Shown piece after piece: positions 19,060 through 36,903 of a stretch of 42,343 nucleotides of DNA (the first letter of the stretch is position 1; every line of letters begins with the position of its first letter). Source of the stretch: a virus; IMG/VR virus record IMGVR_UViG_3300017917_000554, positions 1-42,343 of that record, one strand, 5' to 3'. A program made the translations under genes and the position numbers. The notes under the pieces are model-generated. The model was not told where the DNA came from and ran no database searches. It saw only the letters and a list, made by a program, of their open reading frames with translations.

Positions 19060-19665
19060 TTAAACTTTATATTCAAAGAAGTCCACGTCTCGTTCGTGGA
19101 CTTTTTTTATGGCTGCAATACTAGCATCGTTAAAATATTTTTTAAATTCCCAATGGTCATATCCGGACAGGTCAGGCAAAGGTACTGTACATTTTAAGTA
19201 TTCTTGTACAGGTTTAAATCCCGTTTCTAGTTCTTCTGCTTTGATAATAAAGTCTACCCAATTACCATCGTAGTTTATAAAGTCTATTTGATTTGTAGCT
19301 TTATTAAACCATCTAGGAAATTCAAAAGGAATATCCGGATTACAATAATCAAGTACCCATTCGTTAATAGGTTTGAGTTCTAGTAAGGTCATACCGTTCC
19401 AATCTAACCAATAGCCTTCTGTGCTTATTTTACGATAGAAACTATAAACACGCTGCCAAGGATTACGGACAACACTTAGAGTTTTTCCTGTGGGTATATG
19501 TTCACGAACCATTTCTAAACTAGGATGGTTGATCATCCAAGGTGTTTCGTCATCTACTTCAAAGTTTGGTTTGAGCCATTCTTTGATAATTTTTTTCATT
19601 GCCATACCGGTACGAGGTACGTGTACGTAGCTAAGTTCTGGATTCGGTATGTAGAATGTTCCCAT
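19060..19665 (-). CDS. Sulfotransferase-family protein
   Basis: A 201-residue protein. YVHVPRTGMAMKKIIKEWL (13-31) resembles the PAPS 5'-phosphosulfate-binding loop of Sulfotransfer_2-type enzymes and SVVRNPWQRVYSFYRK (about 63-78) the 3'-phosphate site. The donor would be PAPS, the acceptor a sugar, lipid or other hydroxyl. It begins one base into the end of the desaturase gene (shared base 19665), so the two are coupled. The loop has one G after T where the classic form has GG, so activity is likely but not sure. Confidence 0.75.
   Translation of the reverse strand: MGTFYIPNPELSYVHVPRTGMAMKKIIKEWLKPNFEVDDETPWMINHPSLEMVREHIPTGKTLSVVRNPWQRVYSFYRKISTEGYWLDWNGMTLLELKPINEWVLDYCNPDIPFEFPRWFNKATNQIDFINYDGNWVDFIIKAEELETGFKPVQEYLKCTVPLPDLSGYDHWEFKKYFNDASIAAIKKVHERDVDFFEYKV
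19079..19108 (+). terminator. Intrinsic terminator after the fibre gene
   Basis: AAGTCCACG (19079-19087) pairs with CGTGGACTT (19095-19103), 7-base loop, followed by a T-run to 19108. It lies within the 3' end of the sulfotransferase coding sequence on the other strand, so the two genes share this DNA. Confidence 0.85.
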
Positions 19666-20435
19666 TATTTGATTTTAATTAATTGAATCAAGCGGCCCAT
19701 TAGATCCCATTCCCACCATTTTTCACCACTATGCCATCTTAAGCCGTGTGCGTGATGATTATTATGCCATCCGTCGCCGAGACTTACTATATTAGCAATC
19801 CAGCTATTGGTACTACGATCGGCTGTTTCGTGGTTTCTATAACCGTGTCCGTGACCAAGAACATTTACCACTCCTATAAGATGAACTGTCATACTAGCTG
19901 GCACAACATACACAAACAACCATAATACAGGATTAATTAAAATTACAATCAATGAAAATACAAAAATAATTTTAAAATAATTATTAAAAATAAACTTGTG
20001 TGTAGGACTACGCATTAAGTCTTTAACATAGGCCACAGGGATATTCGGAATATCCCAGTCGTATCCTAACCAAACTTTTACTGCTTGAACAAAATTAAAC
20101 TTACCGTTGATATAGGGACTGTGTGGATCACCTTCTCTATCAGATGTTGCGTGGTGTTGTCGATGTAATGCTACCCAACTAATAGTAGGTCCCACAGTTG
20201 AGATAACACTAATATAGCTTAGTGTTTTTTCTAACCACTGGTATGTTTTAAAACTACGATGTGTTAACAATCTGTGTAATGTAATAACACTACTGATAGG
20301 ACCAATGATTAACCAAGACACAAACGCAACTGCAAATAGATAATATTGTTGTGTATAGATAGCATAGGCAATAGCAGGAATCGTTGCTATGTGATTAAAT
20401 GTCTGTAGTAATCTAACTTTGGTATTTAAATTCAT
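19665..20435 (-). CDS. Fatty-acid desaturase (delta-9 acyl type)
   Basis: A 256-residue membrane protein with the three histidine boxes of acyl desaturases: HRLLTH (54-59), HRQHH (91-95) and HNNHH (224-228). About four hydrophobic segments flank them in the usual order. The enzyme would put a double bond in membrane acyl chains with di-iron chemistry and an external electron donor, none of which is in the window. It overlaps the 20432 gene by 4 bases. Confidence 0.9.
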   Translation of the reverse strand: MNLNTKVRLLQTFNHIATIPAIAYAIYTQQYYLFAVAFVSWLIIGPISSVITLHRLLTHRSFKTYQWLEKTLSYISVISTVGPTISWVALHRQHHATSDREGDPHSPYINGKFNFVQAVKVWLGYDWDIPNIPVAYVKDLMRSPTHKFIFNNYFKIIFVFSLIVILINPVLWLFVYVVPASMTVHLIGVVNVLGHGHGYRNHETADRSTNSWIANIVSLGDGWHNNHHAHGLRWHSGEKWWEWDLMGRLIQLIKIK

Positions 20436-21043
20436 ACACCTTCAGGCATTGCTGCCCATCCTTCGTCATTAATAATTTTTGGATTCCATTCTTTAAATGC
20501 GTTCGAGACCGTTTCGAAATATACATAGTTCTGCCAACATTTTTGTACCTGAGCATTACAGGTTTGAATATAACCTGCACCTAAAGTCCATTTGCTGTTA
20601 CTAGCAAGATCCATATGTTTAACCCAGGTATCCCACCAACGTTTACCGCCTCTGGGTCTATTCTGCATAGTAATCAAGTATATATCATATGAGTTAACTT
20701 TTTCTAATGCGTCTATTAGACTGCAAGTAACTCTGAAACCGTCTGTCATATCAGTATGCTTCATACGAAATTCTGGAAACGTATACAGTCGGTTAATCTG
20801 TTTAGCTACATTTTTTGGATAACGACCGTCATTAAACACACCTCCCATTACCATAGGTTTACCAGTTGACTTTTGGTAGACTACCCCATATCCTGTGTGT
20901 TGCTCTATCACTAGATTCTCTTTAGTGTAATTACTGCGTAGCCAATTATCCTCTTGTAAACATATCTCTCGTACGGTTTCAAACTCCGAACACGACTCGT
21001 AGTATATTTTAATTTCAGTATTGGATAAATCGTATCTGTACAT
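20432..21043 (-). CDS. Protein of unknown function, possibly GNAT-like
   Basis: A 203-residue protein. A central region (GYGVVYQKSTGKPMVMGGVF, residues about 52-71) looks like the beta hairpin of GNAT acyltransferases; QINRLYTFPEFR follows as strand and helix, and RGGKRWWDTW lies later. The key acetyl-CoA-binding Q/RxxGxG/A loop is not clear. It starts the leftward unit that continues with desaturase and sulfotransferase. I would rate the fold call as weak. Confidence 0.5.
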   Translation of the reverse strand: MYRYDLSNTEIKIYYESCSEFETVREICLQEDNWLRSNYTKENLVIEQHTGYGVVYQKSTGKPMVMGGVFNDGRYPKNVAKQINRLYTFPEFRMKHTDMTDGFRVTCSLIDALEKVNSYDIYLITMQNRPRGGKRWWDTWVKHMDLASNSKWTLGAGYIQTCNAQVQKCWQNYVYFETVSNAFKEWNPKIINDEGWAAMPEGV

Positions 21044-21068
21044 TTTTTTATAGTAGCAGTTTATTTAC

Positions 21069-21076
21069 TTAAATAC
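21069..21076 (+). promoter_or_regulatory. TAAATA box (late-promoter-like)
   Basis: TTAAATAC ends three bases before ATG 21080. No Shine-Dalgarno sequence is visible. The gene at 21043 runs away in the other direction from the same short gap. Confidence 0.42.
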
Positions 21077-21079
21077 ACA

Positions 21080-21700
21080 ATGATGGAAAATATTCTAACC
21101 AAACTAGATGTTAAAGTTAATATTGAAGAACTAAAAGAATATTATAACACGCTTAACATTCGATATCAACACCTAGACTGGAGTTGGGAGAAGTGTGGCA
21201 GTAGTATTGTTGAACAGTGGCGCGATGCCGCTTACGCAGATCCTGCTAATCTTCTAACACACGGGTGGGCCATTCAAAGTAATTTAAAAGATATAACACT
21301 ACCGTGTCCTCCTTGGAATATCAGCACATTAGAAACTGTCGAATATAGAAATACAGAATTAGCATTTGGCATTATAGAAAGATTACAATCAGTGATACCC
21401 TACGGATATCGTTGGTCTGTGAGTGTTCAGCCGCCCGGCGGCAAGGTAAGTTTACATTCGGATCAAGAAGATGAATGCACTGTATGGATTCCAATTTATA
21501 CAGACGGTGTTGCTATCACATTTGTAACATCAGAAAAAAATACAGGATATTGCTTAGACAGTGACGGAAGTTTATATCTTTTAGATACTACTGTTCCGCA
21601 TTTTACATATAACTCTTCTCAACAAGATCGTGTTACAATTATTTTTAGAATGAAAAAAACACATATAGATGAACTATTGTCTTTAAAGGACACTATATGA
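21080..21700 (+). CDS. Aspartyl/asparaginyl beta-hydroxylase-like 2OG oxygenase
   Basis: A 206-residue protein with the AspH pattern: PPGGKVSLHSD (His126, Asp128), a strand pair VWIPIYTD..ITFVTS, then VPHFTYN (His174) and DRVTIIF (Arg184). These are the iron ligands and the 2OG-binding Arg. AspH-like enzymes hydroxylate Asp/Asn side chains in proteins. ATG 21080 is followed directly by a second ATG. It overlaps the 21697 gene by 4 bases. The true substrate is unknown. Confidence 0.82.
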   Translation: MMENILTKLDVKVNIEELKEYYNTLNIRYQHLDWSWEKCGSSIVEQWRDAAYADPANLLTHGWAIQSNLKDITLPCPPWNISTLETVEYRNTELAFGIIERLQSVIPYGYRWSVSVQPPGGKVSLHSDQEDECTVWIPIYTDGVAITFVTSEKNTGYCLDSDGSLYLLDTTVPHFTYNSSQQDRVTIIFRMKKTHIDELLSLKDTI

Positions 21701-22389
21701 AATACGATTACTATTGGAACGATATACCGGGTGTAGGATTAAGTCGAAACAATCTTATCTATACCAGCCTTATCTCTGAAGATAAAAAGACATTCGTCCA
21801 ATGGTACTTTAATGATGTAAATTATCATAAAGATCAGAACGAAGTTGTTGATCCTGCACTAATGAAAGACAAATGGGACCGTGAAATATGCTATCTATAT
21901 CAGATGAGTCAATACTATCCTGACCTTGTTCCTAAGATTAAGAATATTGATATTTTAGAAAAGAAAATATATCTAGAAATAGACGGATTAGACTTTTGGA
22001 ATCGTGCTGGTTGTTTAACAGAAAACTATGACAGCGTTTTACCTAATTGGCAAGAACAGATGTTGAACATTATTCAAGCATACAAGGACCTAGGTTGGTA
22101 TAAATTTAGTATGCACCCTAGCAGTTACTTTGTAGTAGACGGTAAACTTAAAAGTATCAACTACTTCTTTGTTTACAATCAAGACGAAGGTCCTATCAGC
22201 ATAGCAGATCACAGCAGTCACATACACAGTCAACGACAGGCATTTATGCGTACACAAGTAGAAGCTATGGGATTAGATTGGAATGAACCACAGCCGCTAA
22301 GTAAACTACAAGAGTTATGCTTTGAAAGTTTTAGAAACAACTATCCAGCAGACTTTATAGAAAAAGCCAAGGAAATTTATCGTGATTAA
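21697..22389 (+). CDS. Kinase-fold-like protein (degenerate)
   Basis: A 230-residue protein. The segment YKFSMHPSSYFVVDGKLKSINYFF (residues about 137-160) aligns by eye with the catalytic and metal loops of small-molecule kinases (H-G-D-L-H-P-x-N then D-F), but the catalytic Asp is replaced and the DF pair reads NY. This looks like a pseudokinase or a binding protein with that fold. It overlaps the 21080 and 22382 genes, so all three are coupled. Role unknown. Confidence 0.5.
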   Translation: MKYDYYWNDIPGVGLSRNNLIYTSLISEDKKTFVQWYFNDVNYHKDQNEVVDPALMKDKWDREICYLYQMSQYYPDLVPKIKNIDILEKKIYLEIDGLDFWNRAGCLTENYDSVLPNWQEQMLNIIQAYKDLGWYKFSMHPSSYFVVDGKLKSINYFFVYNQDEGPISIADHSSHIHSQRQAFMRTQVEAMGLDWNEPQPLSKLQELCFESFRNNYPADFIEKAKEIYRD

Positions 22390-23194
22390 AGGTATTAACG
22401 GAACTCCTTACATTGATATGAGTCAACATATTGACTTGAATCATTTTAAAAATCTTCAACCTGAGATACTTAGAGGCTTTGCCGAAGCACGGATGTATGC
22501 TAAAGAAGGTACTTGGATGAAGCCCGGCTTTACCTATGAAAAGATGAGTTATATTGTTAACTGGAAACCAATCTTTACTGCGGTTGACGAGTACCTAGCG
22601 TTGCCAGATGATGATCCTATTAAACAAGGCGGATGGGATCTATATACAAATATTAAAGACTACGAAACACGCAATAAATTCACACGCTATCTAAAAATGG
22701 CTATGGGTGCATATGACCCTTACATATATTATTTCTTGTGGGAAGAAGGTTCGTGGGATGATCGATCAGCGCCACGCAAACTAACCGAGGAAGCAGCACA
22801 CTTTCCTGAAACAGTTAAGTGGGTTGAAAGTATGATTACTGATGGAATCTTTGAACACATTGGCCGTGTTATATTCTTTCATTGTGATCACAACGGTATT
22901 CCGTTTGAACACAGAGACTTAGGTGGGCATAACGGTGTATGGGACATCAATCAATACAGTCCGCATCGTAATGAGTTTATACATATTCGCCCTAACACCA
23001 AGAAAGCATTTTATCTGTGGGACCCGGATAACAAAAATAAGACCTATATTAATACACAGGCTGCTTGGTGGAATGATCAAGACTGGCACGGCGGCGAAAC
23101 TATTATGGAACAGAGTTATAGTTTACGTGTAGATGGAAAATTTACCGAAGAGTTTCGTAAGAAACTTGGCATCGATCACTTAGACAGTTATTGA
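22382..23194 (+). CDS. 2OG-Fe(II) oxygenase-like protein
   Basis: A 270-residue protein starting with GTG (overlapping the previous stop); an ATG 36 bases later is an alternative. IPFEHRD holds a His177-x-Asp179 pair, QDWHGGET a later His236, and SYSLRVDG Arg249, in correct order for a double-stranded beta-helix oxygenase. An N-terminal 150-residue region is not recognised. Convergent with the next gene (7-base overlap). Larger than its paralogues, so the N-terminal part may set substrate choice. Confidence 0.65.
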   Translation: MIKGINGTPYIDMSQHIDLNHFKNLQPEILRGFAEARMYAKEGTWMKPGFTYEKMSYIVNWKPIFTAVDEYLALPDDDPIKQGGWDLYTNIKDYETRNKFTRYLKMAMGAYDPYIYYFLWEEGSWDDRSAPRKLTEEAAHFPETVKWVESMITDGIFEHIGRVIFFHCDHNGIPFEHRDLGGHNGVWDINQYSPHRNEFIHIRPNTKKAFYLWDPDNKNKTYINTQAAWWNDQDWHGGETIMEQSYSLRVDGKFTEEFRKKLGIDHLDSY

Positions 23195-23736
23195 TAGCCA
23201 GTTAAGGTTAATAAAAACTTTGGTGTGAGGCCAACATTACTACCTGCGTGGTAAGCGTGTGCATCTGAATACTGATATATTGCGCCTTGTGTTTCATTAT
23301 AGTATGCGTCTTGTTCTGTGACAAAAATATGTCCGGGTTGTGGCTTACTCAAAAAACAAAAATAACGAACTAGTGTTCCGTGTTTTTTATGTTCTTCCTC
23401 CCAAGGATTAACATCCCAGTGCCAGGGTGTACATTTACCAGGACGAATTTCACTAACCCAACACATCAACGGAGTACAACCTACAAGCTCTCCAAGCATT
23501 TGTGTATATTTGGAATCAAAATGTGTACCAGATTGATAGTGTCGATACTCAACAGAGTCGTCGGTGTAACCTGCTTGTTCTAATTTAACTGTTTGAGAAT
23601 GTATATCGTTGTAATAGGGATTAGACGGATCTAATTTCATAAAACCGTGAAAGGGTTCGACCTGTTGAGATTGAAGGTGTTGTATAAGTTTATCACAATC
23701 AAACTTACTTTGGCAGTTACCTATGTATAATTTCAT
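23188..23736 (-). CDS. 2OG-Fe(II) oxygenase-like protein
   Basis: A 182-residue protein with CTPWHWD (His106, Asp108), a hairpin around GHIFVTEQD, and a distal His (AYHAG, His163) followed by TPKFLLTL, where Lys173 would take the place of the usual 2OG-binding Arg. Iron ligands are in order, but a Lys in that place is less common and points to a different clade. It starts inside the end of the 23733 gene (4-base overlap). Confidence 0.68.
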   Translation of the reverse strand: MKLYIGNCQSKFDCDKLIQHLQSQQVEPFHGFMKLDPSNPYYNDIHSQTVKLEQAGYTDDSVEYRHYQSGTHFDSKYTQMLGELVGCTPLMCWVSEIRPGKCTPWHWDVNPWEEEHKKHGTLVRYFCFLSKPQPGHIFVTEQDAYYNETQGAIYQYSDAHAYHAGSNVGLTPKFLLTLTGYQ

Positions 23737-24398
23737 TGCGTAACCTCAAATATATCGGGTAGTATCTGTTTTAATGATTCTACACAATCTTGTTCAATAC
23801 TAAAACTCACTTCACTGTCAACAAATTTAAAATTATTAATAACTCCTTGTTTGTTAGCACGATTTAACCAAGGACTTATTGTGCTATCAAATTGATATCT
23901 AAAGTCGGGGGTGTTAATTTTTAATACTATCTTTATATCAACAGGATTTACAAGTGCATTTCTATTAAGTAAATGTCTAACAACTAATTGTATTCGATCA
24001 ATATGTCCAAAATTAGCTGCGGTGTGTTTACGACCAGCATCCATATCGTACCATATACCATCGGTATGTAATTGATGCATTGTTGAATTGTCTAGATCAA
24101 GAAGATAACCATATTCCGACTGAAGATTAAGATGCCATCTATCGTCTGCATCGGCGTGACAGTAATATGATGTTCCCGGTTTAAGCACAATTACTCGTGC
24201 CTCACCTTGTTTAACCGGTAAAGAATTTAAAATATCTTCCCAAACTGTGCCTTTTAGTTCAGGTTTAATAATCCAAGGATCGTAGAAAAAATCGCCAGTG
24301 GGCTGATTGATTGTGTACTTAAATTCAGTATGCTGCGATTGGCTAACTGCTTCATTTAAGACTGCTACGTCAATTGAATATTTGGTTGGGGATAACAT
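23733..24398 (-). CDS. AspH-like 2OG oxygenase with extra C-terminal domain
   Basis: A 221-residue protein. GTSYYCHAD (His81, Asp83), RKHTAANFG (His125) and HIDRIQLVV (Arg135) fit the AspH-like iron and 2OG sites. The last 75 residues, beginning after RHLLNRN, form an unrelated domain with predicted strands (IKIVLKIN). It is the first gene of a leftward pair; its ATG lies behind a CATAAATA box. The partner gene at 24439 goes the other way. Substrate unknown. Confidence 0.72.
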   Translation of the reverse strand: MLSPTKYSIDVAVLNEAVSQSQHTEFKYTINQPTGDFFYDPWIIKPELKGTVWEDILNSLPVKQGEARVIVLKPGTSYYCHADADDRWHLNLQSEYGYLLDLDNSTMHQLHTDGIWYDMDAGRKHTAANFGHIDRIQLVVRHLLNRNALVNPVDIKIVLKINTPDFRYQFDSTISPWLNRANKQGVINNFKFVDSEVSFSIEQDCVESLKQILPDIFEVTQ

Positions 24399-24403
24399 AA
24401 AAA

Positions 24404-24411
24404 TATTTATG
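24404..24411 (-). promoter_or_regulatory. TAAATA box (late-promoter-like), minus strand
   Basis: CATAAATA on the minus strand ends five bases before the ATG of the leftward oxygenase gene at 24398. Confidence 0.42.
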
Positions 24412-24426: not shown

Positions 24427-24434
24427 TTAAATAA
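24427..24434 (+). promoter_or_regulatory. TAAATA box (late-promoter-like)
   Basis: TTAAATAA ends four bases before ATG 24439. Shares the 40-base divergent gap with the minus-strand box at 24404. Confidence 0.38.
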
Positions 24435-24438
24435 TTAA

Positions 24439-25170
24439 ATGTTACAAGCCCTAGAGTTTCTTCAAACTAATGCAGAATTAAAAAAACCTCTTCCTCAAAT
24501 TCCTAACAATTTGGTAACGGACGAAGAAGTTTCCAGATGGGTACTTAGACAAGATATTCCGTATATTGAATTAGATATTAGTTTTAATATTACTGAATGG
24601 CAGCAAGAAGCAAAGTTAGCTGAACCATATTTTGTAAATCACAGAGAATCGCAACCGCATAGGGGTTGGCGCAGTTGTTGTATACACGGCATCGACGTTG
24701 ATAAAACAGGTATTTGGAATATGTATGCCGACGAAGAACCAGAATATCGCTGGACTAGTTTGTCAGAATTAACACCGACTATTAAACAATTCTGGCAACA
24801 GTTTCCTTTTGAAAAGTTAGCCAGAGTAAGGTTTATGAAATTAGATCCAGCTGGTTATATTGCACCGCATCACGATACTCCTAAAGGTTATACTACAGAT
24901 TTAGAAATATTAGATTATCTAATACCAATTAATATTGCTATAGATCATCCAGATAACTGCCATATGGTATTAAAAGATCACGGAATTGTTCCTTGGCAAA
25001 CTGGAAATGTTAAGTTAGTAAACATCACTAATTACCATTCGGTTGTTAACTTTAGTGACCAACCTCGAATGCATCTGATAGCACACGGAATTGTAGGTAA
25101 CTGTATTACAGAATTTTCAAATTTAATTGCAAGAAGTTATAAAAAACAATATGAACGTAGTAGAATTTAA
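24439..25170 (+). CDS. AspH-type 2OG oxygenase
   Basis: A 243-residue protein with a clear AspH core: DPAGYIAPHHD (His144/145, Asp146), strands YLIPINIAID and CHMVLKDHG, then ITNYHSVVNFS (His200) and QPRMHL (Arg210). It is the clearest AspH-like member in the window. No Shine-Dalgarno sequence is seen. The following gene starts within its last 20 bases, so they are probably coupled. It starts a five-gene rightward unit that goes on with three radical-SAM proteins. Confidence 0.82.
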   Translation: MLQALEFLQTNAELKKPLPQIPNNLVTDEEVSRWVLRQDIPYIELDISFNITEWQQEAKLAEPYFVNHRESQPHRGWRSCCIHGIDVDKTGIWNMYADEEPEYRWTSLSELTPTIKQFWQQFPFEKLARVRFMKLDPAGYIAPHHDTPKGYTTDLEILDYLIPINIAIDHPDNCHMVLKDHGIVPWQTGNVKLVNITNYHSVVNFSDQPRMHLIAHGIVGNCITEFSNLIARSYKKQYERSRI

Positions 25171-26344
25171 ATCTCAAAATAAACCCCTAGCATTTTGTTT
25201 TATTGATCACACACATCAATATGAGTCTGCTTGGTCAACTGAGCTTATTAAAAATTTAGCCGATTATACTATTAGTAATATCACAAAAAAAGGTTATGAT
25301 ATACTTCAGTCTAAGGACGAAGATTCAGCACTGCTTCGTGCTGTTGAATTAGGTTACAAGTATGCTGTGGTATTTTCAACTGGAACTGAATTTATTAACG
25401 GTAGTGATTTTTTTAAAGAAGTTGAACATTTAATTAATACAGATTTTTATGTCTACGGCCATATATTAGATCGAGGCGATGCATATTATGAGTTACATCA
25501 TCAGTGCTATCTAATAAATCTTAAAAAATATCAAGAATTAGATTGCCCTATAGTTGGTCAATCTGTGTTAGGTAGTGTTCATCAACAGCAGTCTCCTCGA
25601 CGTTCTATAGAAAACATACACGACAGTTATACTCCCCTATGGATAAGCTCTGGAAATTATGATCGGGTATATAATCATAAATTACACGGATGGAATCTTA
25701 TTTCTAAAATTTTAGCATCGGGTGGAACAATCTATGCATTTGATGAAAAAATTAGAAATAATAAAAAACACTATTATCCAGAAAGTCAAAAAGATTTCTT
25801 AAAGCAGATCGCTTGGGCATATGCTCGTTACAACTATTGTGTTAACGATTTTGTACATACTAGCAATACTGAAACTATTGATTGGCCAGAGAACAATTAT
25901 GAACAAATAATAACTCCAGCTAGCGGTACCTGGTTTGTTGATTATATTTCTAAAGATAAACCAGTTACTGTTGTTTATTATGATTACAATCAACAGGCAT
26001 TAGACTATTGGAAAGAAAATGCTCCTTGTATAGATAATGTATCTTATAAATTTTTAAAAATTGATCTACTAGGGATATTTGATATTTCAACTCTTACCGA
26101 AGACATTGATAAAAAAACTTTAATTAATTTTTCTAACATTTTTTGTTACGAAGGAACAGCAATGTTTTCTAGTTTAGAATATAGACTACACAAGGAAACA
26201 GAACTCATTAATCAAATTCCAAAAAATTGGAGTATTGTGTCTAGTATGACTAGCACACAAGGCTTTACAAATCAACAAAAACCTGTTAAACTTACACAGT
26301 TAATTAAACCAACCTGGCACTATGGAGGGGATTGGAATGAATGA
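25151..26344 (+). CDS. Two-domain protein of unknown function
   Basis: A 397-residue protein starting at ATG 25151 inside the preceding gene. The N-terminal half has the flavour of a glycosyltransferase-like fold: YAVVFSTGTEF, FYVYGHILDRGDAYYELHHQ and CYLINLKKY, with no clear DxD donor site. The C-terminal half (from about residue 250) has GTWFVDYI and VTVVYYDYN, then a SAM-methyltransferase-like or Rossmann-like arrangement. It sits between an AspH-like oxygenase and the radical-SAM genes, so it probably acts on the same target. Function unknown. Confidence 0.55.
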   Translation: MNVVEFKSQNKPLAFCFIDHTHQYESAWSTELIKNLADYTISNITKKGYDILQSKDEDSALLRAVELGYKYAVVFSTGTEFINGSDFFKEVEHLINTDFYVYGHILDRGDAYYELHHQCYLINLKKYQELDCPIVGQSVLGSVHQQQSPRRSIENIHDSYTPLWISSGNYDRVYNHKLHGWNLISKILASGGTIYAFDEKIRNNKKHYYPESQKDFLKQIAWAYARYNYCVNDFVHTSNTETIDWPENNYEQIITPASGTWFVDYISKDKPVTVVYYDYNQQALDYWKENAPCIDNVSYKFLKIDLLGIFDISTLTEDIDKKTLINFSNIFCYEGTAMFSSLEYRLHKETELINQIPKNWSIVSSMTSTQGFTNQQKPVKLTQLIKPTWHYGGDWNE

Positions 26345-27602
26345 ATCAAAGACATTCTGTATGCACCCTTTCACAGGGCTAGCTACTAGAGAAGACGGTG
26401 CTATAAAAGTATGTTGCCGTAGTCAACCTGTGGGATGGATCCAGGATGAACCGCTAGAGAATGTTTGGAACGGCAGCAATATGCGTGAAATTCGCAAACA
26501 GGTTTTATGCGGAGAACGTCCTGCGGTATGCAAGCCTTGTTTTGATCTAGAAGATCAAGGAGTAGAAAGTCTACGCCAACGACATATTAAGAATACTATT
26601 CCAGAAAGTCGTATAAATCTGTACCCTAACGTTTTAGATCATCTGAGAGATGATTATACAATGCCGTTTGAATTTCCTACAATAGAAATCAAACTTAACA
26701 ATTTATGCAATCTTAAATGTCGAATGTGTAATCCGTTAGATAGTACTAATTGGAAAGACTGGGATTCTGTTGTACCTTTTTACAAAAAAGAAAATAACTA
26801 TCTTGTTCCCACAGTTGAAAAACTAGTTAAGAAACCTGGACAGTATATAGGCCCGTTTGACGACACAGACAATTGGTGGGCTAGTTTTGAAAAACTATTG
26901 CCTCACTTTAGACGTGTAGAGTTTGCTGGTGGAGAACCTTTAATGGATCCGCAGCATTATAAAATTTTAGATATGCTCAAACCCTATGGCAAGAACATAG
27001 AAATCAAATATGCCACTAACGGCACAACACTAGGAATTAGTAATGGAAGATCCATACACGATTATTGGCCACATTTTAAATCAGTTGCCGTTAATGTCAG
27101 CCTTGATGGCATTCACGATGTTTACAACTACATTCGCACTAACGGTAACTTCAGTGAAGTTGAAGCAAACATTAAAGAAATTCAAACAATACCCAATGTA
27201 AGTCGTGTGGTAGGGGCATTTACAGCGCAGGCAGGCAATATATTACAGGCAGCGGAATGTATTGATTACTTTATCAACAAGATGAACATTGTGTTTTATA
27301 GTCATAGAGTAAGTTATCCTAGTGTACTATCTGCACAGGTATTGCCGCAGGAATTAAAAAATAGAGCTATTACTCGATTGTTAAATGTTAAGGATACAGT
27401 CGGATCATTTAATAACGTTATCAAGTATCCAATACTTGAAAGAATAACTAAACAACAGATACAAGATAATATTAACTACCTTCAAGCCCGGGACCTAAAT
27501 CATCTATGGCCAGAGTTTGTAGAGTTTAATCGCAAGCTAGATGCCACAAGAAATCAAGGTCCATTAGAATCTGTTGTTCCGGAATTTGCACCATATGTAT
27601 AA
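26337..27602 (+). CDS. Radical SAM protein with N-terminal twitch domain
   Basis: A 421-residue protein. Residues 1-85 hold Cys8, Cys26-Cys27, Cys65 and Cys68 with a SPASM-like pattern (DGAIKVCC, VWNGSNMREIR), as in the N-twitch radical-SAM family. The radical-SAM site is CNLKCRMC (Cys124, Cys128, Cys131) with FAGGEPLM at about 200. ATG 26337 is chosen over 26322 because GGAGGGGA lies just upstream. Its end overlaps the next gene. Peptide-modifying chemistry is typical of this type, but the substrate is unknown. Confidence 0.87.
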   Translation: MNESKTFCMHPFTGLATREDGAIKVCCRSQPVGWIQDEPLENVWNGSNMREIRKQVLCGERPAVCKPCFDLEDQGVESLRQRHIKNTIPESRINLYPNVLDHLRDDYTMPFEFPTIEIKLNNLCNLKCRMCNPLDSTNWKDWDSVVPFYKKENNYLVPTVEKLVKKPGQYIGPFDDTDNWWASFEKLLPHFRRVEFAGGEPLMDPQHYKILDMLKPYGKNIEIKYATNGTTLGISNGRSIHDYWPHFKSVAVNVSLDGIHDVYNYIRTNGNFSEVEANIKEIQTIPNVSRVVGAFTAQAGNILQAAECIDYFINKMNIVFYSHRVSYPSVLSAQVLPQELKNRAITRLLNVKDTVGSFNNVIKYPILERITKQQIQDNINYLQARDLNHLWPEFVEFNRKLDATRNQGPLESVVPEFAPYV

Positions 27603-29573: not shown

Positions 29574-30679
29574 ACTGTATAACGAGTCATCATTTTGTTA
29601 TAAAGCTCTAAAGATTTAGCCTTTGGCGCACACAATCCGCACCAACACTTGGCTTTCTTACAATTAATAACAGGTAGTGTATTATTTTTAAAGTTTGCAG
29701 ATAATTCTTCTAAGATTTTATCAGCATCATCTAATGACCCATACGGTCCCACAGTTCCATCGAAGGTCATACGACAATCTTTGTTTAGGTATATGTTACG
29801 TTCTAGCTGTTTGATAAACACAAAGAACCAATTAACACTACAACTCCATCCTTCAAAATTATTTCCAGGTACAAATAATACTTTATTGTCAAAGTCTTGA
29901 TCAACACAAAGGGCCTCACCGCCACAACAGGCTCTACCAATCTTAGCCATATCAGTTTTTTCTTCTGACTGTTTGGCTGTTTCAAGTTTATCTGACTCCA
30001 TAGGTTTAGTACTGCGTTTTTTATAAAGATTATCAAACCAAATAACCTGTTCTTGCTTGTAACTAAACTTTGTATTACCTTTGTCTTGATCCAACTGTCT
30101 AGGTAGATATGTGATATTGTTTTCTTTGCACCATTCGATCATTGATAAGTTGTTATCAAAATAGTCTGGGTGCATTAATACAGAACATTGATACCATTTA
30201 CCGGAATCTCTGAGAGCCAAAAGATTGTTTCTCATTTGTTCTTGTTGTTTTTCTGTACTTTCTGTGTGATAGCTGATAGTAAAAGAATCAACATATGATA
30301 AAATTTTAAACCAATGTTTTTCAGTTGCAACGGCATTAGTGATACAATGTATATTCATTCCCCATTTGTGTTTATAGGGTTCGTGTCTTAGTCTTATTTC
30401 CTCAAGAATTGTAGTGAAGTCTGGATGATAAATTGCTTCACCCCCGAACAAATTTAAAATAGCAAATCTTTGAGATTCTGGTTTGTGCTCCATATAAAGA
30501 TCAGCATACTTCAATAGAAAGTCTACAGTTTCTAGACACTCTTCTAGTGTTGGGTGTTTAGTTTGATTGTCGTGACTACTACAATACGTGCAGTCTAAAT
30601 TGCACTTCATTGTAAGTTCCCAGTCCATATGAAATATAGGATTGGTTTTATGTGTTTCTAATATATTAAAATCAGGCAT
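29570..30679 (-). CDS. Radical SAM protein with Cys-rich C-terminus
   Basis: A 369-residue protein. The start is taken at ATG 30679, because the longer form would run through the preceding gene. CNLDCTYC (Cys26, Cys30, Cys33), FGGEAIYHP (GGEA rather than GGEP), RACCGGEALC and WSCSVNW in the middle, and KCWCGLCAPKA at the end. Shares the CCGG, WSC and C-x-CG-x-C pattern with the 28485 gene. Last of a leftward unit of four radical-SAM genes. Confidence 0.86.
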   Translation of the reverse strand: MPDFNILETHKTNPIFHMDWELTMKCNLDCTYCSSHDNQTKHPTLEECLETVDFLLKYADLYMEHKPESQRFAILNLFGGEAIYHPDFTTILEEIRLRHEPYKHKWGMNIHCITNAVATEKHWFKILSYVDSFTISYHTESTEKQQEQMRNNLLALRDSGKWYQCSVLMHPDYFDNNLSMIEWCKENNITYLPRQLDQDKGNTKFSYKQEQVIWFDNLYKKRSTKPMESDKLETAKQSEEKTDMAKIGRACCGGEALCVDQDFDNKVLFVPGNNFEGWSCSVNWFFVFIKQLERNIYLNKDCRMTFDGTVGPYGSLDDADKILEELSANFKNNTLPVINCKKAKCWCGLCAPKAKSLELYNKMMTRYTV

Positions 30680-31637
30680 TTTTAATTTTCTTAATTGTAA
30701 TTTCGTGTGTACATTCACAAATTGATTTTTCACAAACAATAGGAATTATTTCAGGACTAAATTCATTTATAAAATTTTTATCATATAGATTATAAAAATG
30801 ATCGATACCGTAAATCTTTTGTCTACAGTTACCGTTAATGTATCCGTCTCTATGAATCTTAATTAGATCGACTCCTAGGTTGCAGGACCATCCTTGAAAA
30901 CAATTTAAATCATTTAAAGCAAACCAATTTTCGTTGACCAGTTTCTTTTTAGAATTTTTAACAGCCCATACTTTAGTTTGATTGCGATTTTTTAAACTGA
31001 ACCACCAAAATAAATTTGGCATTCTTTTTAAGGGCGTTAAAAGAAACTTTTTTTGACTTTCTGAATATCTAGTCACACCATTAAAATGTACAGTCTTAGC
31101 TATTATTGTCCATCTACGTTTACTAGATTTTAATTGATGTATAATAGCTTGGCATTTTTCAAAATGATCAGGATCCATTAATACATTGGCAACGTTATTA
31201 ACTTTGTTGTCATAGATTAGATCTAACACATTTGAAAGGTGTTCTATATCGGCGTACTCGTGATGTACTGAAACTTCAATTTCATCAAAAAACTTTACAT
31301 TGTCTTTCCACCAATCAAGTTTTCTACTACCATTTGTTGATAATCTAATATTAATATCGTAATTGTTTTTTAAGTGTTGACACAACTTAGGTAACTCTTT
31401 CCATAGAGTAGGTTCACCACCAATTAGATAGATGTCAAATTTAGTCTTGCCAGCATTTTTATAATGAGCTAACAAGTGATCTAAATTTTTAATAACTAGA
31501 TCTACGTCAGGCCAGGGAATTGTTCCTTCGTTGCTGCCTGGAAAACAATAGCTACATCTATGGTTACAGAGATTCCCAAGATCATATTCGATATGTAACA
31601 GATCTTTAGGTTGAGAATTAATAATTTCTGTTAGCAT
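30672..31637 (-). CDS. Radical SAM protein, short form
   Basis: A 321-residue protein with CNHRCSYC (Cys24, Cys28, Cys31) and LIGGEPTLW near 75. The tail has CFQGWSCNLG, GNCRQK and VCEKSICECT, like the 27595 and 35923 proteins. It overlaps the 29570 and 31631 genes by 8 and 7 bases, so the unit is translationally coupled. Substrate unknown. Confidence 0.87.
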   Translation of the reverse strand: MLTEIINSQPKDLLHIEYDLGNLCNHRCSYCFPGSNEGTIPWPDVDLVIKNLDHLLAHYKNAGKTKFDIYLIGGEPTLWKELPKLCQHLKNNYDINIRLSTNGSRKLDWWKDNVKFFDEIEVSVHHEYADIEHLSNVLDLIYDNKVNNVANVLMDPDHFEKCQAIIHQLKSSKRRWTIIAKTVHFNGVTRYSESQKKFLLTPLKRMPNLFWWFSLKNRNQTKVWAVKNSKKKLVNENWFALNDLNCFQGWSCNLGVDLIKIHRDGYINGNCRQKIYGIDHFYNLYDKNFINEFSPEIIPIVCEKSICECTHEITIKKIKNA

Positions 31638-33043
31638 AGATGAGCAAGTTCAGGGAACACAGATTTAAAATTAGTGTTTCTACTCTGATCTAACGTGTTA
31701 ATGTATTCTTTAAAGGCTGGTAATTGATCTGTGTGATCTTCGCTGTCCATAAATTCTAATACCGCTTGCCAACGTTTCCATCCATATGGGTTTTTCTTCC
31801 AGAAATCTTCGTCCTGTCTGTAATTTTCATACAACCACGTAGCAAACTCAGCAAACAATCTACGTACTTCTTCTTTATCCTCTGGCGGTAATACTCGAAT
31901 ACTTAACCAGGTTGGTATGTATAACAGATGCATATTAACAATACCGCCGCCGGCCTCCATTCCTTCCATTACATTTTGTAAATTAATTTTACGGAAGTTC
32001 TGTTGAATCTTCCAGCGAGCAAAGTCGGGTAGGTGTTTAATGTTTAGAACCTGTATTGCCGTTGCTATACTAACCTGAATGTTATCCGGTGTATTATCTA
32101 ACTTATGAAGATTAGATTCTATAGTGGCCCAATCGCTAGGATAACGAATGTACCAATTTCTAAGATCAGTTGCATCTATACTGAATCCCACCTTAACTAA
32201 TTTAAACTGTTTCCATAGTTCAATTATTTCGTCATCTACTAATAGTCCATTAGTATTATAACGAACTAGGATTTTATCTGCGTATCCTTGGCGAATAATT
32301 TCTTCTAAGAACCATTTATGCTCACGTATCATTAAAGGTTCACCGCCAGCAAAATAAACTTGCTTTAGATTAGGGATCTGGGCATACATTTCTTTCCAGA
32401 AGTCTGGATTTTCGTGCCACTTATTGTTAAAATCTTTACGTTCCCAAGCCATTTGTTCTTTAAGTTCCTTGGCCTGAAATAAAGGATAAATCTTTTTGTG
32501 TTCACCTACCCATTGACTACTGTCGTGTGGACTGCACATCACACATTTTAAATTACAAGTGTGACCTAATCTTAGATCAAGATAGACTAATTTTTCTGGA
32601 ACAGTTCCATCTTCTTGTGTTTGTTTAATTAACTCTGGAATATCGATACCATCTTGAATCCACGTTCCAGTTTCCCACATACGTTTACTAGCAACACCCC
32701 TGCTTTCTTCTTCATAGCACTTGCTACAGCTTTTAGGAATATTGCCTTCTAACATTGTGGTACGTACTGAACGCATATATTCGTTGTTCCACGCACTCAT
32801 AGGAGTTTCACGACCAAAGTTTGCAGGCACACCTTTTTCATTCTTAACTAATCCAACTGTGTGGTCATCACCTGCGCCGCTGGCATTTGCCGAACAACAT
32901 AAACGCATATCGCCGTTAGGACGAGTAGCAAAGTGAATCCACGGCAATACACAAAAAGTATTGCTGCCACTAAGTTCATTGACTTTGCGCTGCCATCTTC
33001 CTAGCATTGTATCTTCAGGTTGGATCCAAAATACTTTATCCAT
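31631..33043 (-). CDS. Radical SAM protein with N-terminal twitch domain, long form
   Basis: A 470-residue protein. Cys31, Cys49-Cys50, Cys106 and Cys109 form the N-terminal twitch pattern (NGDMRLCC, CSKCYEEESRG), and CNLKCVMC (Cys163, Cys167, Cys170) is the radical-SAM site with FAGGEPLM near 240. It is the counterpart of the 26337 protein on the other arm of the island. C-terminal 100 residues are Trp-rich and basic. Overlaps its neighbours by 7-8 bases. Confidence 0.87.
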   Translation of the reverse strand: MDKVFWIQPEDTMLGRWQRKVNELSGSNTFCVLPWIHFATRPNGDMRLCCSANASGAGDDHTVGLVKNEKGVPANFGRETPMSAWNNEYMRSVRTTMLEGNIPKSCSKCYEEESRGVASKRMWETGTWIQDGIDIPELIKQTQEDGTVPEKLVYLDLRLGHTCNLKCVMCSPHDSSQWVGEHKKIYPLFQAKELKEQMAWERKDFNNKWHENPDFWKEMYAQIPNLKQVYFAGGEPLMIREHKWFLEEIIRQGYADKILVRYNTNGLLVDDEIIELWKQFKLVKVGFSIDATDLRNWYIRYPSDWATIESNLHKLDNTPDNIQVSIATAIQVLNIKHLPDFARWKIQQNFRKINLQNVMEGMEAGGGIVNMHLLYIPTWLSIRVLPPEDKEEVRRLFAEFATWLYENYRQDEDFWKKNPYGWKRWQAVLEFMDSEDHTDQLPAFKEYINTLDQSRNTNFKSVFPELAHLC

Positions 33044-34106
33044 TAAGTGATTCTCTTTCTATAAATTGATCTATGGGTTTTGACAAGTGATTTTTTCCAC
33101 AGGTTTTTGCACAGGTTATTAATTTTTTAGTTGTCCAGTATTCTGCCCATATACTTTGATATTCTGGCGAATCAATAATATTTTTAACAGTTTTTTCTAA
33201 TGTACTAATTGTTCCTAGATCTTTAATTAATTCATTATATTGTTCAAGTGCGTGTTGTCGAATGCCGTAGGCTAAACTGTCTACTGTAGAATAGTTATAT
33301 GGTGTAGATGCTAAGAAACAACAGGGCATTAAATTCTTAAATGCATCAATATACACTTCTTTGGTTTTTAATACATAACAATCTATTTCTGTGTTCTTAA
33401 CAACTTCTTTGTAATTCTCAATAATTTGTTTATCTAAAAATTTAATTACGGTATCAGTAGGAGGTCTCAACACGTCAACAGTATTACCTTGTTTGTCATA
33501 AACTTCAAAGTTAGTGTCCCCTATAAATCTGGTACTATTCTTTGTAGTAAATCTTTCAAATCCAAGTTCGGTGGCAATCTTTTTTGCAGAGTCAACTTGA
33601 TGTTGATTGTGTTCAAACACAATGTAGGCCCACTCTGCGTGACCGCCTGCGGCAATAAATGCTTGAGCATTTTTTAATATTTTATCGTAGTGTGTTCCAA
33701 TGCGATATCGACTATGTGTGTCGCTTAGACCATCAATGCCAAATATAACCAAATGATTCTCAGGCAAGGCTTTGGATAGTTGTTGCCACCATTCAGTTGT
33801 TCTTAGACTTCCATTGGTATGAATTCGTATTGAAACACTGCTGTTGTCAGTTACATACTGACACATATCAATAAGATCGTTGTTTAATAACGGATCTCCA
33901 AAGTTTCCACAGAAATATAAATGTTCAATTTGATCTAAAACTTCTTGATTAATAATATGTTTAAAATCTTCCAAAGTCCATTCTTGAATTTTAATCAACG
34001 GATTTTCCAAACCGCCGTGATGATTTCTACTACACATTGGGCAACTTGCCTGGCAGTTATTGGTAATTTCTAAATGTATCTGTTTAAGATCTTTGAAAGG
34101 AAACAT
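33036..34106 (-). CDS. Radical SAM protein, MoaA/SPASM-like
   Basis: A 356-residue protein with CQASCPMC (Cys18, Cys22, Cys25) and FCGNFGDPLLN in place of GGEP, then LIDMCQY. MPCCFLAS (about 265) and CAKTCGKNHL near the end form a SPASM-like set of Cys. It is the first gene of the four-gene leftward unit; a CTAAATAT box lies just upstream of its ATG, divergent from the 34151 gene. It is less like the other family members, so it may do a different step. Confidence 0.85.
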   Translation of the reverse strand: MFPFKDLKQIHLEITNNCQASCPMCSRNHHGGLENPLIKIQEWTLEDFKHIINQEVLDQIEHLYFCGNFGDPLLNNDLIDMCQYVTDNSSVSIRIHTNGSLRTTEWWQQLSKALPENHLVIFGIDGLSDTHSRYRIGTHYDKILKNAQAFIAAGGHAEWAYIVFEHNQHQVDSAKKIATELGFERFTTKNSTRFIGDTNFEVYDKQGNTVDVLRPPTDTVIKFLDKQIIENYKEVVKNTEIDCYVLKTKEVYIDAFKNLMPCCFLASTPYNYSTVDSLAYGIRQHALEQYNELIKDLGTISTLEKTVKNIIDSPEYQSIWAEYWTTKKLITCAKTCGKNHLSKPIDQFIERESLNG

Positions 34107-34112
34107 TGCAGA

Positions 34113-34120
34113 ATATTTAG
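34113..34120 (-). promoter_or_regulatory. TAAATA box (late-promoter-like), minus strand
   Basis: CTAAATAT on the minus strand ends six bases before the ATG at 34106. Confidence 0.4.
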
Positions 34121-34137
34121 TAAGTATTATAGTATGC

Positions 34138-34145
34138 TATAAATA
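34138..34145 (+). promoter_or_regulatory. Perfect T4-late-type box TATAAATA
   Basis: TATAAATA, identical to the T4 late consensus, ends five bases before ATG 34151. Divergent partner of the minus-strand box at 34113. Confidence 0.55.
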
Positions 34146-34150
34146 TCTTT

Positions 34151-35377
34151 ATGGACGAACAAATTTCCTTTAAAGGTCTTAACCAATTTACACAATCAGC
34201 AATTGATTTAATTCAATCCGAAATATCAAAGACCAACGGAAATTTACTATTACCCACCGTAAGTCTTTGCCATCAATGTCATAGTCACGTTCCGGCCTGG
34301 CGGTATCACAAAGATGGAAAGGTATACATTGCCAAGCACTGTAAATTACACGGTGTTAGTCATCATATGATCGAAAGCGATTATGAGTTTTATAAGGGTC
34401 TTTACTATACTCAAGATAACCCTAGATACAATTTTAACGGCGGAATATTAATCGAAGCCAGTGATCGTTGTAATTTAGAATGCCCGCATTGCTATCACTT
34501 GCCCGACAACCAAATTGTAGATCAACCAATTGAATCACTGTTAGATCAAATTAAAAAATTGCCCCTAGGCAGCGATCAAATAAGCCGTATTATTTTATCT
34601 GGTGCTGAAGCAACACTACGTCCAGACTTTGTAGAATTAGTTACAGCAATTCAAAAATTGCATCCGAACATCGATGTTACTGTTATGACAAATGGTATTC
34701 AATTTGGTAACAGCGATTTTGTTAAAGCAGTCAAGGAGTGCGGACTAGCGGGTGTGAATATAGGACTGAATCATCCCGAGTATATCGATCACAAAGTTAT
34801 TAGACGTAAACAAGTGGCTGCTATTGAAAATATGTATGCTTACGATATTCCAATTAGCTATATTTCTTACACTATGATTAGTCTAAATGAAGTACACGAC
34901 ATTATGACAGAAATATGTGATAACTATTGGCGCCCTAAAAACTTTAGAATTCGATATGGTTCAGACATCGGACGCAATCCTGGTCAACAACGTATCTTTG
35001 TCAGCGATGTATACAAGGCTATCGAAACTTGGTGTAAAGAAAATAACAAATCATTTGAACGTATTGTTGAAGCAGACAATAATATCTATCACGTTATGGC
35101 TAACGTAGAAGGCAAGGACATACGTATTATTCAATGGTGCGATGAAACAGACATCGATATGGAAGAATTGCGCTCAGGCCCGTGGTGTGATTTTGTACCT
35201 GACGGTGTTACAAACTTTTTACATCAAATTATTCGCAGAGATGTTTGGAAAAATCAAGGACTGATATTACCCGACACACCGCCCGATAGATATAAGTTTG
35301 ATAGGAATCCTGACAAGACTCCCTTGGATCTTTTAAACTTAACTTGGTCTACCAATAATCATAAATCGCTTGTATAA
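34151..35377 (+). CDS. Radical SAM protein of the Tes/MJ0619 type
   Basis: A 408-residue protein. The N-terminal module SLCHQCHSHVPA (Cys40, Cys43), DGKVYIAKHCKLHG (Cys64) is what precedes the radical-SAM core in the MJ0619 / tetraether-synthase class. The core has CNLECPHC (Cys107, Cys111, Cys114); LSGAEATLRPDF stands in place of GGEP. Related enzymes act on lipids or on other large substrates. No Shine-Dalgarno sequence; a perfect TATAAATA lies upstream. The 3' end overlaps a methyltransferase gene on the other strand by 39 bases. Confidence 0.82.
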   Translation: MDEQISFKGLNQFTQSAIDLIQSEISKTNGNLLLPTVSLCHQCHSHVPAWRYHKDGKVYIAKHCKLHGVSHHMIESDYEFYKGLYYTQDNPRYNFNGGILIEASDRCNLECPHCYHLPDNQIVDQPIESLLDQIKKLPLGSDQISRIILSGAEATLRPDFVELVTAIQKLHPNIDVTVMTNGIQFGNSDFVKAVKECGLAGVNIGLNHPEYIDHKVIRRKQVAAIENMYAYDIPISYISYTMISLNEVHDIMTEICDNYWRPKNFRIRYGSDIGRNPGQQRIFVSDVYKAIETWCKENNKSFERIVEADNNIYHVMANVEGKDIRIIQWCDETDIDMEELRSGPWCDFVPDGVTNFLHQIIRRDVWKNQGLILPDTPPDRYKFDRNPDKTPLDLLNLTWSTNNHKSLV

Positions 35378-35932
35378 AGGCAAGTCAAGTTCTCCTGCCC
35401 ACAAAACATTTAAATTACTCTGTTGTTTAAATTCTTCTAGATCTTTAGCTGTACGAATATGTTCAGGTATCTGGTAATTGTTACTCTGTAATACTATAAG
35501 ACTATTATGAGGCATTCCGCTTAGCCACAGGTCATATTGTTCTTGTGTAATATGTTCACAACTAGTATTGATAATAACATCAGCATCGCTACGGATACTA
35601 CACATATCTGCTGTAACTGCACGGAACTTACCAAACATTTCTTCGGGCTTGTTCATCATAATGGCAATAGGCTCACAGGCTGGATCGATATCAATACTGC
35701 GGATGTTTAATACAGGAACATCGCTTTGAAATAACATACTGGCTAGCACACCATTCCATCCACCGTGAATATCCACTGACACAAATTTATGAACGTGTTT
35801 ACGTAATTGAGTACACAACCATTCTTTGCTTTTCATTTGCCCTTGCCAAAAGCAATCAAGTGTGCGCATCGGGTCTGGGCTTTGTCTTACTGCCTGCATC
35901 CAATGGTGAAAATGTTCTAAGTCTATTTGCAT
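35339..35932 (-). CDS. SAM-dependent methyltransferase-like protein
   Basis: A 197-residue protein. FVSVDIHGGWNGVLASMLF (about 49-67) is motif I of class-I methyltransferases, IRSIDIDPACEPIA (78-91) the acidic loop, and ADVIINTSCEHI (117-128) the motif IV region. Start at 35932 overlaps the radical-SAM gene at 35923 by 10 bases, so they are co-made. Target unknown. The overlap of 39 bases with the 3' end of the 34151 gene is convergent. Confidence 0.78.
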   Translation of the reverse strand: MQIDLEHFHHWMQAVRQSPDPMRTLDCFWQGQMKSKEWLCTQLRKHVHKFVSVDIHGGWNGVLASMLFQSDVPVLNIRSIDIDPACEPIAIMMNKPEEMFGKFRAVTADMCSIRSDADVIINTSCEHITQEQYDLWLSGMPHNSLIVLQSNNYQIPEHIRTAKDLEEFKQQSNLNVLWAGELDLPLYKRFMIIGRPS

Positions 35933-36903
35933 TTTGGTATCTTTGAATCTGCTGAACTAACACAACTTGTAGTGATACATTGCGTTGGTTCTTTGAACAA
36001 AGCGAATCCTTCTGTTAGTGTTCCTAAAGGAGCATCGTGACAACTGTACGATCTCTTAACTTCATTTCCTCTTATTATAACACTTTGATAACCACTATTG
36101 CAACTCCAACCTTGGAATTTATTAAATCCAAAAGCATTAAATCGCTCTGCCTGATCAAACAGATATTCATTATTGTTTTGATCATACAAAGCAATCTGAT
36201 AAACTTCGCTGCCGTGTGCGTGTTGTGGAAATCCTGTCTGCATCAAATGTATCATTTCTTCTGTGTAGCCATCTACAATGCTACTAGCTGTTGGATCACT
36301 TTGCGGTTTAAGTGTTACATTAATTCCTCTATTATGAAACTTTTCCATTCTAGCATATAACTCAAAAAACTTTTCAGGAACCATTACTTGATTAATTGTA
36401 ACGTGTACAGTGTCGTTTATTAATTGTAAACACTTATCACCAAATTCTTGTTCTTTGGCAAATTCATCGTGATAGCTGGCTGTGATACTTCTGCGTTGTA
36501 GATCACGTGTAGCGTGGCTCCAAGCATTCCACCATTTTGAACCAGGACTTAGATTAGTGGTCATATGCACACTTTGATAAGGTGTAGTTGGACCATCATC
36601 TAGATGATGTATAAGATTAATCAATTCTTTATAAGCAGTTGGTTCGCCGCCACTAAAACTCCAATGAAATTGATTAAATCCGTTAGCTCGAGCTTGCCGT
36701 TTTATTTCATCTACTGTTCGTTTGTAAACTTCTAATGGTTGGTGATCCAATTTATCGCTGCGAGCATATGGCCAGCAGTAAGAACAGTTATAATTACAAA
36801 ATCGTCCTAGGATCCAGCTTGTAGAAAATAACGGATTGGACAACATCGTTCTTTGACCAAACTTAACTATATTTTGAAATGGTATTTGTTGAAAATCTTG
36901 CAT
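35923..36903 (-). CDS. Radical SAM protein, short form
   Basis: A 326-residue protein with CNYNCSYC (Cys36, Cys40, Cys43), FSGGEPTAYKE near 85, and a tail with WSCNSGYQS, YSCHDAPLG and CITTSCVSS. A TTAAATAC box lies five bases before the ATG and no Shine-Dalgarno sequence is seen. It is paired with the methyltransferase gene. The last of ten radical-SAM genes in the window. Confidence 0.87.
   Translation of the reverse strand: MQDFQQIPFQNIVKFGQRTMLSNPLFSTSWILGRFCNYNCSYCWPYARSDKLDHQPLEVYKRTVDEIKRQARANGFNQFHWSFSGGEPTAYKELINLIHHLDDGPTTPYQSVHMTTNLSPGSKWWNAWSHATRDLQRRSITASYHDEFAKEQEFGDKCLQLINDTVHVTINQVMVPEKFFELYARMEKFHNRGINVTLKPQSDPTASSIVDGYTEEMIHLMQTGFPQHAHGSEVYQIALYDQNNNEYLFDQAERFNAFGFNKFQGWSCNSGYQSVIIRGNEVKRSYSCHDAPLGTLTEGFALFKEPTQCITTSCVSSADSKIPKCK

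Follow-up and report, generated by a model that had tools for sequence, protein, structure and literature searches.

What do about 20 enzyme genes, nine of them for radical S-adenosylmethionine (radical-SAM) enzymes, do beside the tail-fibre gene of a T4-like virus of aquatic bacteria? The question is raised by positions 19060–36903 (the island) of IMG/VR virus record IMGVR_UViG_3300017917_000554, the 42,343 bases of which were analysed as a whole (the window). The island is among the densest loci for radical-SAM enzymes and 2-oxoglutarate (2OG)-Fe(II) oxygenases reported in phage. An initial annotation had proposed multi-step modification by nine radical-SAM and five 2OG enzymes. The multi-step pathway is supported; the fixed nine-plus-five set is better read as a conserved core with exchangeable cassettes. 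The island is a real, shared chemical pathway and not a random pile of genes, because dozens of related viruses have the same core set, part of which is also found in chromosomes of Bdellovibrio-like bacteria. Genes are named below by their first coordinate in the window (Table 1).

Viral contigs were searched with 31631 (112 matching stretches, 80 kept) and with 28485 (32 stretches, 32 kept). After near-copies were dropped, 45 distinct loci, each 15 kb or longer, formed the set of relatives, and synteny with the window was strong. Each locus held a median of 7 radical-SAM genes (5–11) and 4 oxygenase-family genes (1–7). Genes 31631, 26322 and 27574 were present in all 45 loci, 23733 in 44, 33036 in 43, the kinase-fold family of 21697 in 41, 35339 in 40 and 35923 in 36, the absences being partly explained by contig ends; 27574 adjoined 26322 in 34 of the 45. 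Six genes were variable across loci (28485, 29570, 30672, 22382, 24439 and 25151), and 34151, the sulfotransferase and the desaturase were rare. Comparison of gene order revealed that entire cassettes are exchanged between relatives, whose islands additionally carry epimerase, DegT, RmlD-like, SGNH-like and PP-loop ATPase-like genes. Every gene tested was under purifying selection (ratio of nonsynonymous to synonymous substitution rates, dN/dS, 0.03–0.21, the higher dS values being near saturation).

In profile searches, the ten radical-SAM proteins that the initial annotation had placed in the window, each with a CX3CX2C motif, all passed the PF04055 gathering score of 29.5 (37.9–58.7 bits), and the cluster cysteines were invariant in every radical-SAM family when aligned with relatives. 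Two had been called N-twitch proteins, and these, 26322 (317 bits) and 31631 (405 bits), exceeded the NF033640 cut-off of 170 bits; the other seven in the island fell below it. NF033640 carries no function, and the phage clade stands apart from its bacterial sisters. The duplication suspected inside the island was borne out by two pairs of sister proteins, 26322 with 31631 (116–119 bits) and the CCGG/WSC proteins 28485 with 29570 (about 150 bits). The nearest families to 34151, tetraether synthase Tes and TrsS, share its Zn ribbon and radical-SAM core; 34151 is not a member, scoring 65 and 74 bits against NCBIfam cut-offs of 450 and 490. A defence role of the viperin/pVip type was rejected, the best score being 55.5 bits against a cut-off of 180 for NF038283, with a match only in the shared radical-SAM core.

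The HxD...H iron triad was invariant in all five oxygenase families of the island and the distal Arg in four; in 23188 a distal Lys was assigned instead by eye. Only 24439 passed a Pfam cut-off, 21080 and 23733 scoring under that of PF05118. Eight oxygenases had been counted in the window, from which the five of the island stand and 15286, outside it, is doubtful, having HDHWH rather than HxD. The open reading frame (ORF) at window 15202–15864 overlaps tRNA-Gly (15204–15277), and its true start is therefore near 15286. The nearest profile match of 23733 was Cpz10 (7V4F; E = 1.7e-14, over the catalytic half), the beta-hydroxylase of caprazamycin (nucleoside antibiotic) biosynthesis (PMC9814697). 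Scaffold genes of the caprazamycin type are not present here, and the match fixes only the oxygenase subfamily of 23733.

Part of the core was also found in bacteria. A profile scan of bacterial genomes recovered orthologues of 31631 (44–50% identity) in Bdellovibrionia, Oligoflexia and Bacteriovoracia. Several of these have ordinary chromosomal genes around them, their contigs being 100–940 kb long. At least two of 31631, 33036 and 35923 stood together in at least twelve bacterial loci, mostly all three (the trio). Orthologues of 35923 (51–59% identity) were present in 12 of 192 Bdellovibrionota genomes sampled and, at E ≤ 1e-20, in 0 of 399 Pseudomonadota and 0 of 297 Bacteroidota genomes. 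In a tree of 31631 made by a quick method, the phage clade was sister to a Bdellovibrionota clade, inside a Bdellovibrionota-rich part (Shimodaira–Hasegawa-like approximate likelihood ratio test, 93–99). The trio is adjoined, in phages and in Bdellovibrionota, by a family with DGD/DxD motifs; its model (predicted local distance difference test, pLDDT, 82.7) gave 13 Foldseek matches at E ≤ 0.001, all glycosyltransferases, and as modelled the family has a GT-A fold. Neither 23733 nor the kinase-fold protein had an orthologue-level match in eight Bdellovibrionota genomes, and the shared module is therefore the trio and the glycosyltransferase only. PhyH, considered as a general neighbour of N-twitch genes, was enriched in no more than 7 of 78 bacterial loci, which belong mainly to a few Bacteroidota clusters, and was not used as evidence. 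Five Bdellovibrionota genomes (G013–G017) held 10–27 N-twitch radical-SAM model matches each, an expansion in predatory bacteria. Locus L114 (PUNK01000001.1), labelled Thermoplasmata, fell within the phage clade of 31631 and is probably a phage contig wrongly binned into a metagenome-assembled genome.

The phage origin of the window, proposed earlier, is supported by its relatives. Three large ones (105–186 kb) encode gp23 (E about 1e-98), one carries the late sigma factor gp55 (phrog_12791, 7e-77), and baseplate wedge proteins were also found. In G001 and G002, of which 100–120 kb were read, capsid and baseplate genes are followed by the gene for a giant structural protein (about 5,000 residues) and by tail genes; next come a pair of short genes resembling those for glycosyltransferases, the radical-SAM island and a homologue of the window fibre gene. 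In relatives, homologues of the fibre gene lie at the island edge. No close cultured relative of the window was found by megablast, only distant N-twitch matches, and gp23 was uninformative as to the host, its nearest matches being jumbo T4-like phages of varied hosts.

This setting resembles the host recognition cluster (HRC) of pelagimyophages and cyanomyophages, a large variable island beside tail fibres in T4-like phages in which radical-SAM cassettes, glycosyltransferases and sugar genes have been noticed (PMC7029224). The window likewise has a variable island flanked by an Mtd_N fibre gene, and relatives encode gp23, gp55 and baseplate proteins. Unlike the HRC description, the present one defines an enzymatic core and includes late leaderless promoters and a module shared with Bdellovibrionota, and the freshwater group in that study was said to be without radical-SAM genes (PMC7029224). 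The right flank of the window (Hc1, thyX) also differs from the HRC bounds VrlC–gp14; in G001 and G002 the island comes after the giant structural protein and the tail genes, and the window is a fragment. A T4-like environmental genome with 12 radical-SAM genes, TARA_ERS488813_N000010, has been interpreted in terms of Fe-S metabolism, with no discussion of an island, a core or oxygenases (PMC5332604).

The island comprises seven transcription units, six of which start with a TAAATA-type late-promoter core ending 4–7 nt before the start codon. Cores of the TATAAATA type and the gp55 of a relative are marks of T4-type late genes and therefore support late expression, as the initial annotation had supposed. 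Among the relatives, TAAATA lay 3–9 nt (4 nt in the commonest case) ahead of the start codon at 47 of 87 divergent unit starts, against a mean of 2.0 (maximum 6) in shuffled controls and 6 of 546 internal same-strand starts, the compared sequences being mutually related. A Shine-Dalgarno-like site was present at none of the 47. T4 late promoters sit at −13 to −6 relative to the transcript start (PMC1524935); late island mRNAs should therefore begin at the ATG or no more than a few bases from it and are predicted to be leaderless. Many structural genes with a late core have a leader and a Shine-Dalgarno-like site, as the fibre gene does. The late, leaderless signature sets the island genes apart from most structural genes, and a few further genes, not in the island, show the leaderless arrangement too. 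New here are this promoter pattern, the Bdellovibrionota trio with its GT-A neighbour, and the combination of no conserved precursor peptide with proteins that look soluble by hydropathy, the desaturase being the sole membrane protein of the island.

We propose that the island represents the variable region for host recognition (tail fibres) in a T4-like aquatic myophage, and that it carries a late-expressed tailoring pathway. The core (26322, 31631, 27574, 33036, 35923, 23733, 21697 and 35339) would build one modified moiety, which the cassettes would diversify: the other radical-SAM and 2OG enzymes, the GT-A/methyltransferase fusion, the sulfotransferase, the desaturase and the Zn-ribbon radical-SAM enzyme. 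The product would be a sugar-containing conjugate, attached in the cytoplasm late in infection, most likely to a virion (tail-fibre) protein; such attachment, with exchange of cassettes, could thereby alter the surface chemistry of the phage. The late timing, the soluble enzymes, the fibre neighbour and the company of glycosyltransferases are explained most economically by a glycoconjugate on the virion. That there is one late-expressed pathway in the fibre region is highly probable, and its being a cytoplasmic tailoring pathway whose steps can be exchanged is well supported. The whole proposal, down to a glycoconjugate on the fibre protein, is tentative, and we place it somewhat short of an even chance. 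A more specific version, in which tail fibres are hyper-modified (hydroxylated, glycosylated and further oxidised) by a leaderless late radical-SAM/2OG pathway, diversified by cassettes and sharing its core with Bdellovibrionota, is doubtful. At stake is a pathway conserved across freshwater and marine T4-like phages, for which a short list of core enzymes can now be tested and a bacterial phylum offers the same trio beside a glycosyltransferase. Solving it would give the N-twitch family a function, and could show how large phages alter surface chemistry or make metabolites.

Several observations weigh against a glycoconjugate on the virion. Three oxygenases are similar to Asp/Arg beta-hydroxylases. 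Because that family also includes enzymes of natural-product and lipid A chemistry, the substrates could be amino acids, lipids or small molecules. The DxD glycosyltransferase adjoining the trio is not in the window and is found in just 17 of the 45 phage loci. In 25151 the fold is GT-A-like and the DxD motif is missing. Foldseek TM-scores in general are low (0.2–0.4). Sequence cannot separate a change of the host surface from a change of the virion.

The island might alter the host cell surface (lipopolysaccharide, lipid A or capsule) during infection, blocking superinfection or aiding release. LpxO belongs to the Asp/Arg-hydroxylase family, a desaturase lies in the window, relatives carry sugar-nucleotide enzymes, and PagP is encoded close to radical-SAM genes of Vibrio phage K566. 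A role of this kind has been published for glycosyltransferases in pelagimyophage HRCs (PMC7029224). However, late expression is ill-timed for excluding superinfecting phages, none of the genes was recognised as a flippase, polymerase or ligase, and almost no membrane proteins are encoded; we regard this explanation as unlikely. A diffusible natural product of amino-acid, nucleoside or sugar type, acting for example against competitors or as a signal, would need no exporter if freed at lysis. It would agree with the profile match of 23733 to Cpz10 and with the Trp halogenase, AMP-ligases, B12 radical-SAM enzyme, amidinotransferase and APS kinase encoded in islands of relatives. The island is nevertheless strongly tied to tail-fibre genes and has no recognised scaffold-forming synthetase or resistance gene, which makes such a product rather improbable.

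Twitch/SPASM radical-SAM enzymes commonly act on peptides, and the island could mature a ribosomal peptide or short protein (a ribosomally synthesised and post-translationally modified peptide, RiPP). An ORF of 60–66 residues does lie directly upstream of 31631 in 14 loci (e.g. L028:8839-9039 and L042:5508-5702), but the window and most loci lack it, and it is similar to the C-terminal end of a larger protein, a cold-shock/oxygenase fusion. No other small ORF is conserved within the island, about 99% of which is filled by annotated genes. No precursor peptide had been noticed in the window, and a search across all relatives found none conserved, leaving the island without the defining mark of a RiPP cluster; a RiPP pathway has a small chance of being correct. 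Hypermodification of nucleotides or DNA, to which QueE-like and QueC-like genes in relatives might point, is very unlikely: late expression comes after DNA synthesis, QueE is encoded beyond the island, no Pfam family matches the QueC-like protein, and no DNA-binding modification enzyme was recognised. Equally remote is a chance pile-up of unrelated auxiliary genes in a recombination hot spot. Many genes do differ between islands, but this explanation is contradicted by a core that is invariant in 45 of 45 loci, by strong purifying selection and by a trio kept together in another phylum.

Table 1. Features of the island and its left neighbour, with window coordinates; late-promoter cores are listed after the genes.
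Feature	Positions	Strand	Evidence or remark
Tail-fibre-like protein, major tropism determinant N-terminal domain (Mtd_N) and GNVT-type repeats	17895..19058	+	PF18454 37.1 bits; directly left of island
Sulfotransferase-like protein, accessory	19060..19665	-	PF03567 E 0.011, below cut-off; 1/45 relatives
Membrane fatty-acid desaturase, accessory	19665..20435	-	PF00487 68.8 bits, three His boxes
Protein without family match	20432..21043	-	Opens minus-strand unit 21043-19060; 89% identical in L108
2OG-Fe(II) oxygenase, Asp/Arg-hydroxylase-like	21080..21700	+	H126xD128...H174...R184; PF05118 below cut-off
Kinase-fold protein, pseudokinase-like	21697..22389	+	Profile match to TTK E 2e-5; family in 41/45 relatives
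2OG-Fe(II) oxygenase	22382..23194	+	H177xD179...H236...R249; 26/45 relatives
2OG-Fe(II) oxygenase, often duplicated in relatives	23188..23736	-	H106xD108...H163; motif alignment
Core 2OG-Fe(II) oxygenase, beta-hydroxylase type	23733..24398	-	H81xD83...H125...R135; 44/45 relatives
2OG-Fe(II) oxygenase, Asp/Arg-hydroxylase family	24439..25170	+	PF05118 41.9 bits; usually paired with 25151
Two-domain protein, GT-A-like (nucleotide-sugar transferase) domain without DxD and methyltransferase-like domain	25151..26344	+	AlphaFold2
Core N-twitch radical-SAM enzyme	26322..27602	+	NF033640 317 bits; 45/45 relatives; likely start 26337
Core radical-SAM enzyme	27574..28488	+	PF04055 56 bits; 45/45 relatives; likely start 27595
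Variable radical-SAM enzyme, CCGG/WSC type	28485..29573	+	PF04055; 30/45 relatives
Variable radical-SAM enzyme, sister of 28485	29570..30739	-	PF04055; 15/45 relatives
Variable radical-SAM enzyme	30672..31637	-	PF04055; 34/45 relatives
Core N-twitch radical-SAM enzyme	31631..33043	-	NF033640 405 bits; 45/45 relatives; Bdellovibrionota orthologues
Core radical-SAM enzyme	33036..34106	-	PF04055; 43/45 relatives; Bdellovibrionota orthologues beside 31631
Accessory radical-SAM enzyme, HMPTM-type N-terminal Zn ribbon	34151..35377	+	PF04055; 3/45 relatives
Highly conserved Rossmann/methyltransferase-like protein	35339..35932	-	Motif pattern; 40/45 relatives
Core radical-SAM enzyme	35923..36903	-	PF04055; 36/45 relatives; Bdellovibrionota orthologues, 51-59% identity
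Late-promoter core CATAAATA of tail-fibre gene	17856..17863	+	Then 31-nt leader with Shine-Dalgarno-like CCAGGAG
Late-promoter core TTAAATA	21069..21075	+	4 nt before 21080 start, leaderless type
Late-promoter core CATAAATA	24404..24411	-	5 nt before 23733 start
Late-promoter core TTAAATA	24427..24433	+	5 nt before 24439 start
Late-promoter core CTAAATA	34114..34120	-	7 nt before 33036 start
Late-promoter core TATAAATA	34138..34145	+	5 nt before 34151 start
Late-promoter core TTAAATA	36910..36916	-	6 nt before 35923 start

The remaining island proteins were assigned with varying firmness. The desaturase of the initial annotation was confirmed by its profile match. The sulfotransferase fell below the profile cut-off (16.3 against 22 bits), and both motifs for binding 3'-phosphoadenosine 5'-phosphosulfate are visible by eye. 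For 35339 the name methyltransferase comes from the motif pattern alone; no match was found in Pfam or NCBIfam, and profile comparison with the PDB gave none of use. An active protein kinase was rejected for 21697, where Ser, Ser and Asn replace the HRD Asp, the catalytic Asn and the DFG Asp. Gene 25151, for which this is also the likely start, usually follows oxygenase 24439; its model (pLDDT 91.4) gave weak Foldseek matches to R699, LARGE1 and GT8 for the first domain and to methyltransferases for the second.

A QueC-like PP-loop protein with SGGADS and CxxC motifs, not encoded in the window, lies beside 26322 in many islands (L104:6257-6952; 58 loci in all). In the cultured Vibrio phage K566 (OZ196521, L206; 255 kb), one region combines several N-twitch-like radical-SAM genes with glycosyltransferase-like genes and PagP, most of them annotated as hypothetical; this phage differs in its low identity (about 24%), and other core families were not recognised. 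Within the window, ARAGORN identified 26 tRNA genes. At the right island edge, a tRNA-like element on the plus strand (36963–37074) with paired acceptor ends, a T-arm and CCA was missed by ARAGORN and scored under the Rfam cut-off; tRNA-like translations occur at the equivalent place in relatives. Adjoining 35923 is a plus-strand gene (37116–37310) for a 64-residue Hc1 histone-H1-like protein (PF07432, 48.7 bits), found in relatives too. Further left, at 4077–7652, a 2OG oxygenase, a class-III aminotransferase, an amidinotransferase-like protein and an AdoMet decarboxylase are encoded in a row, and distant homologues of these genes occur now and then within the islands of relatives.

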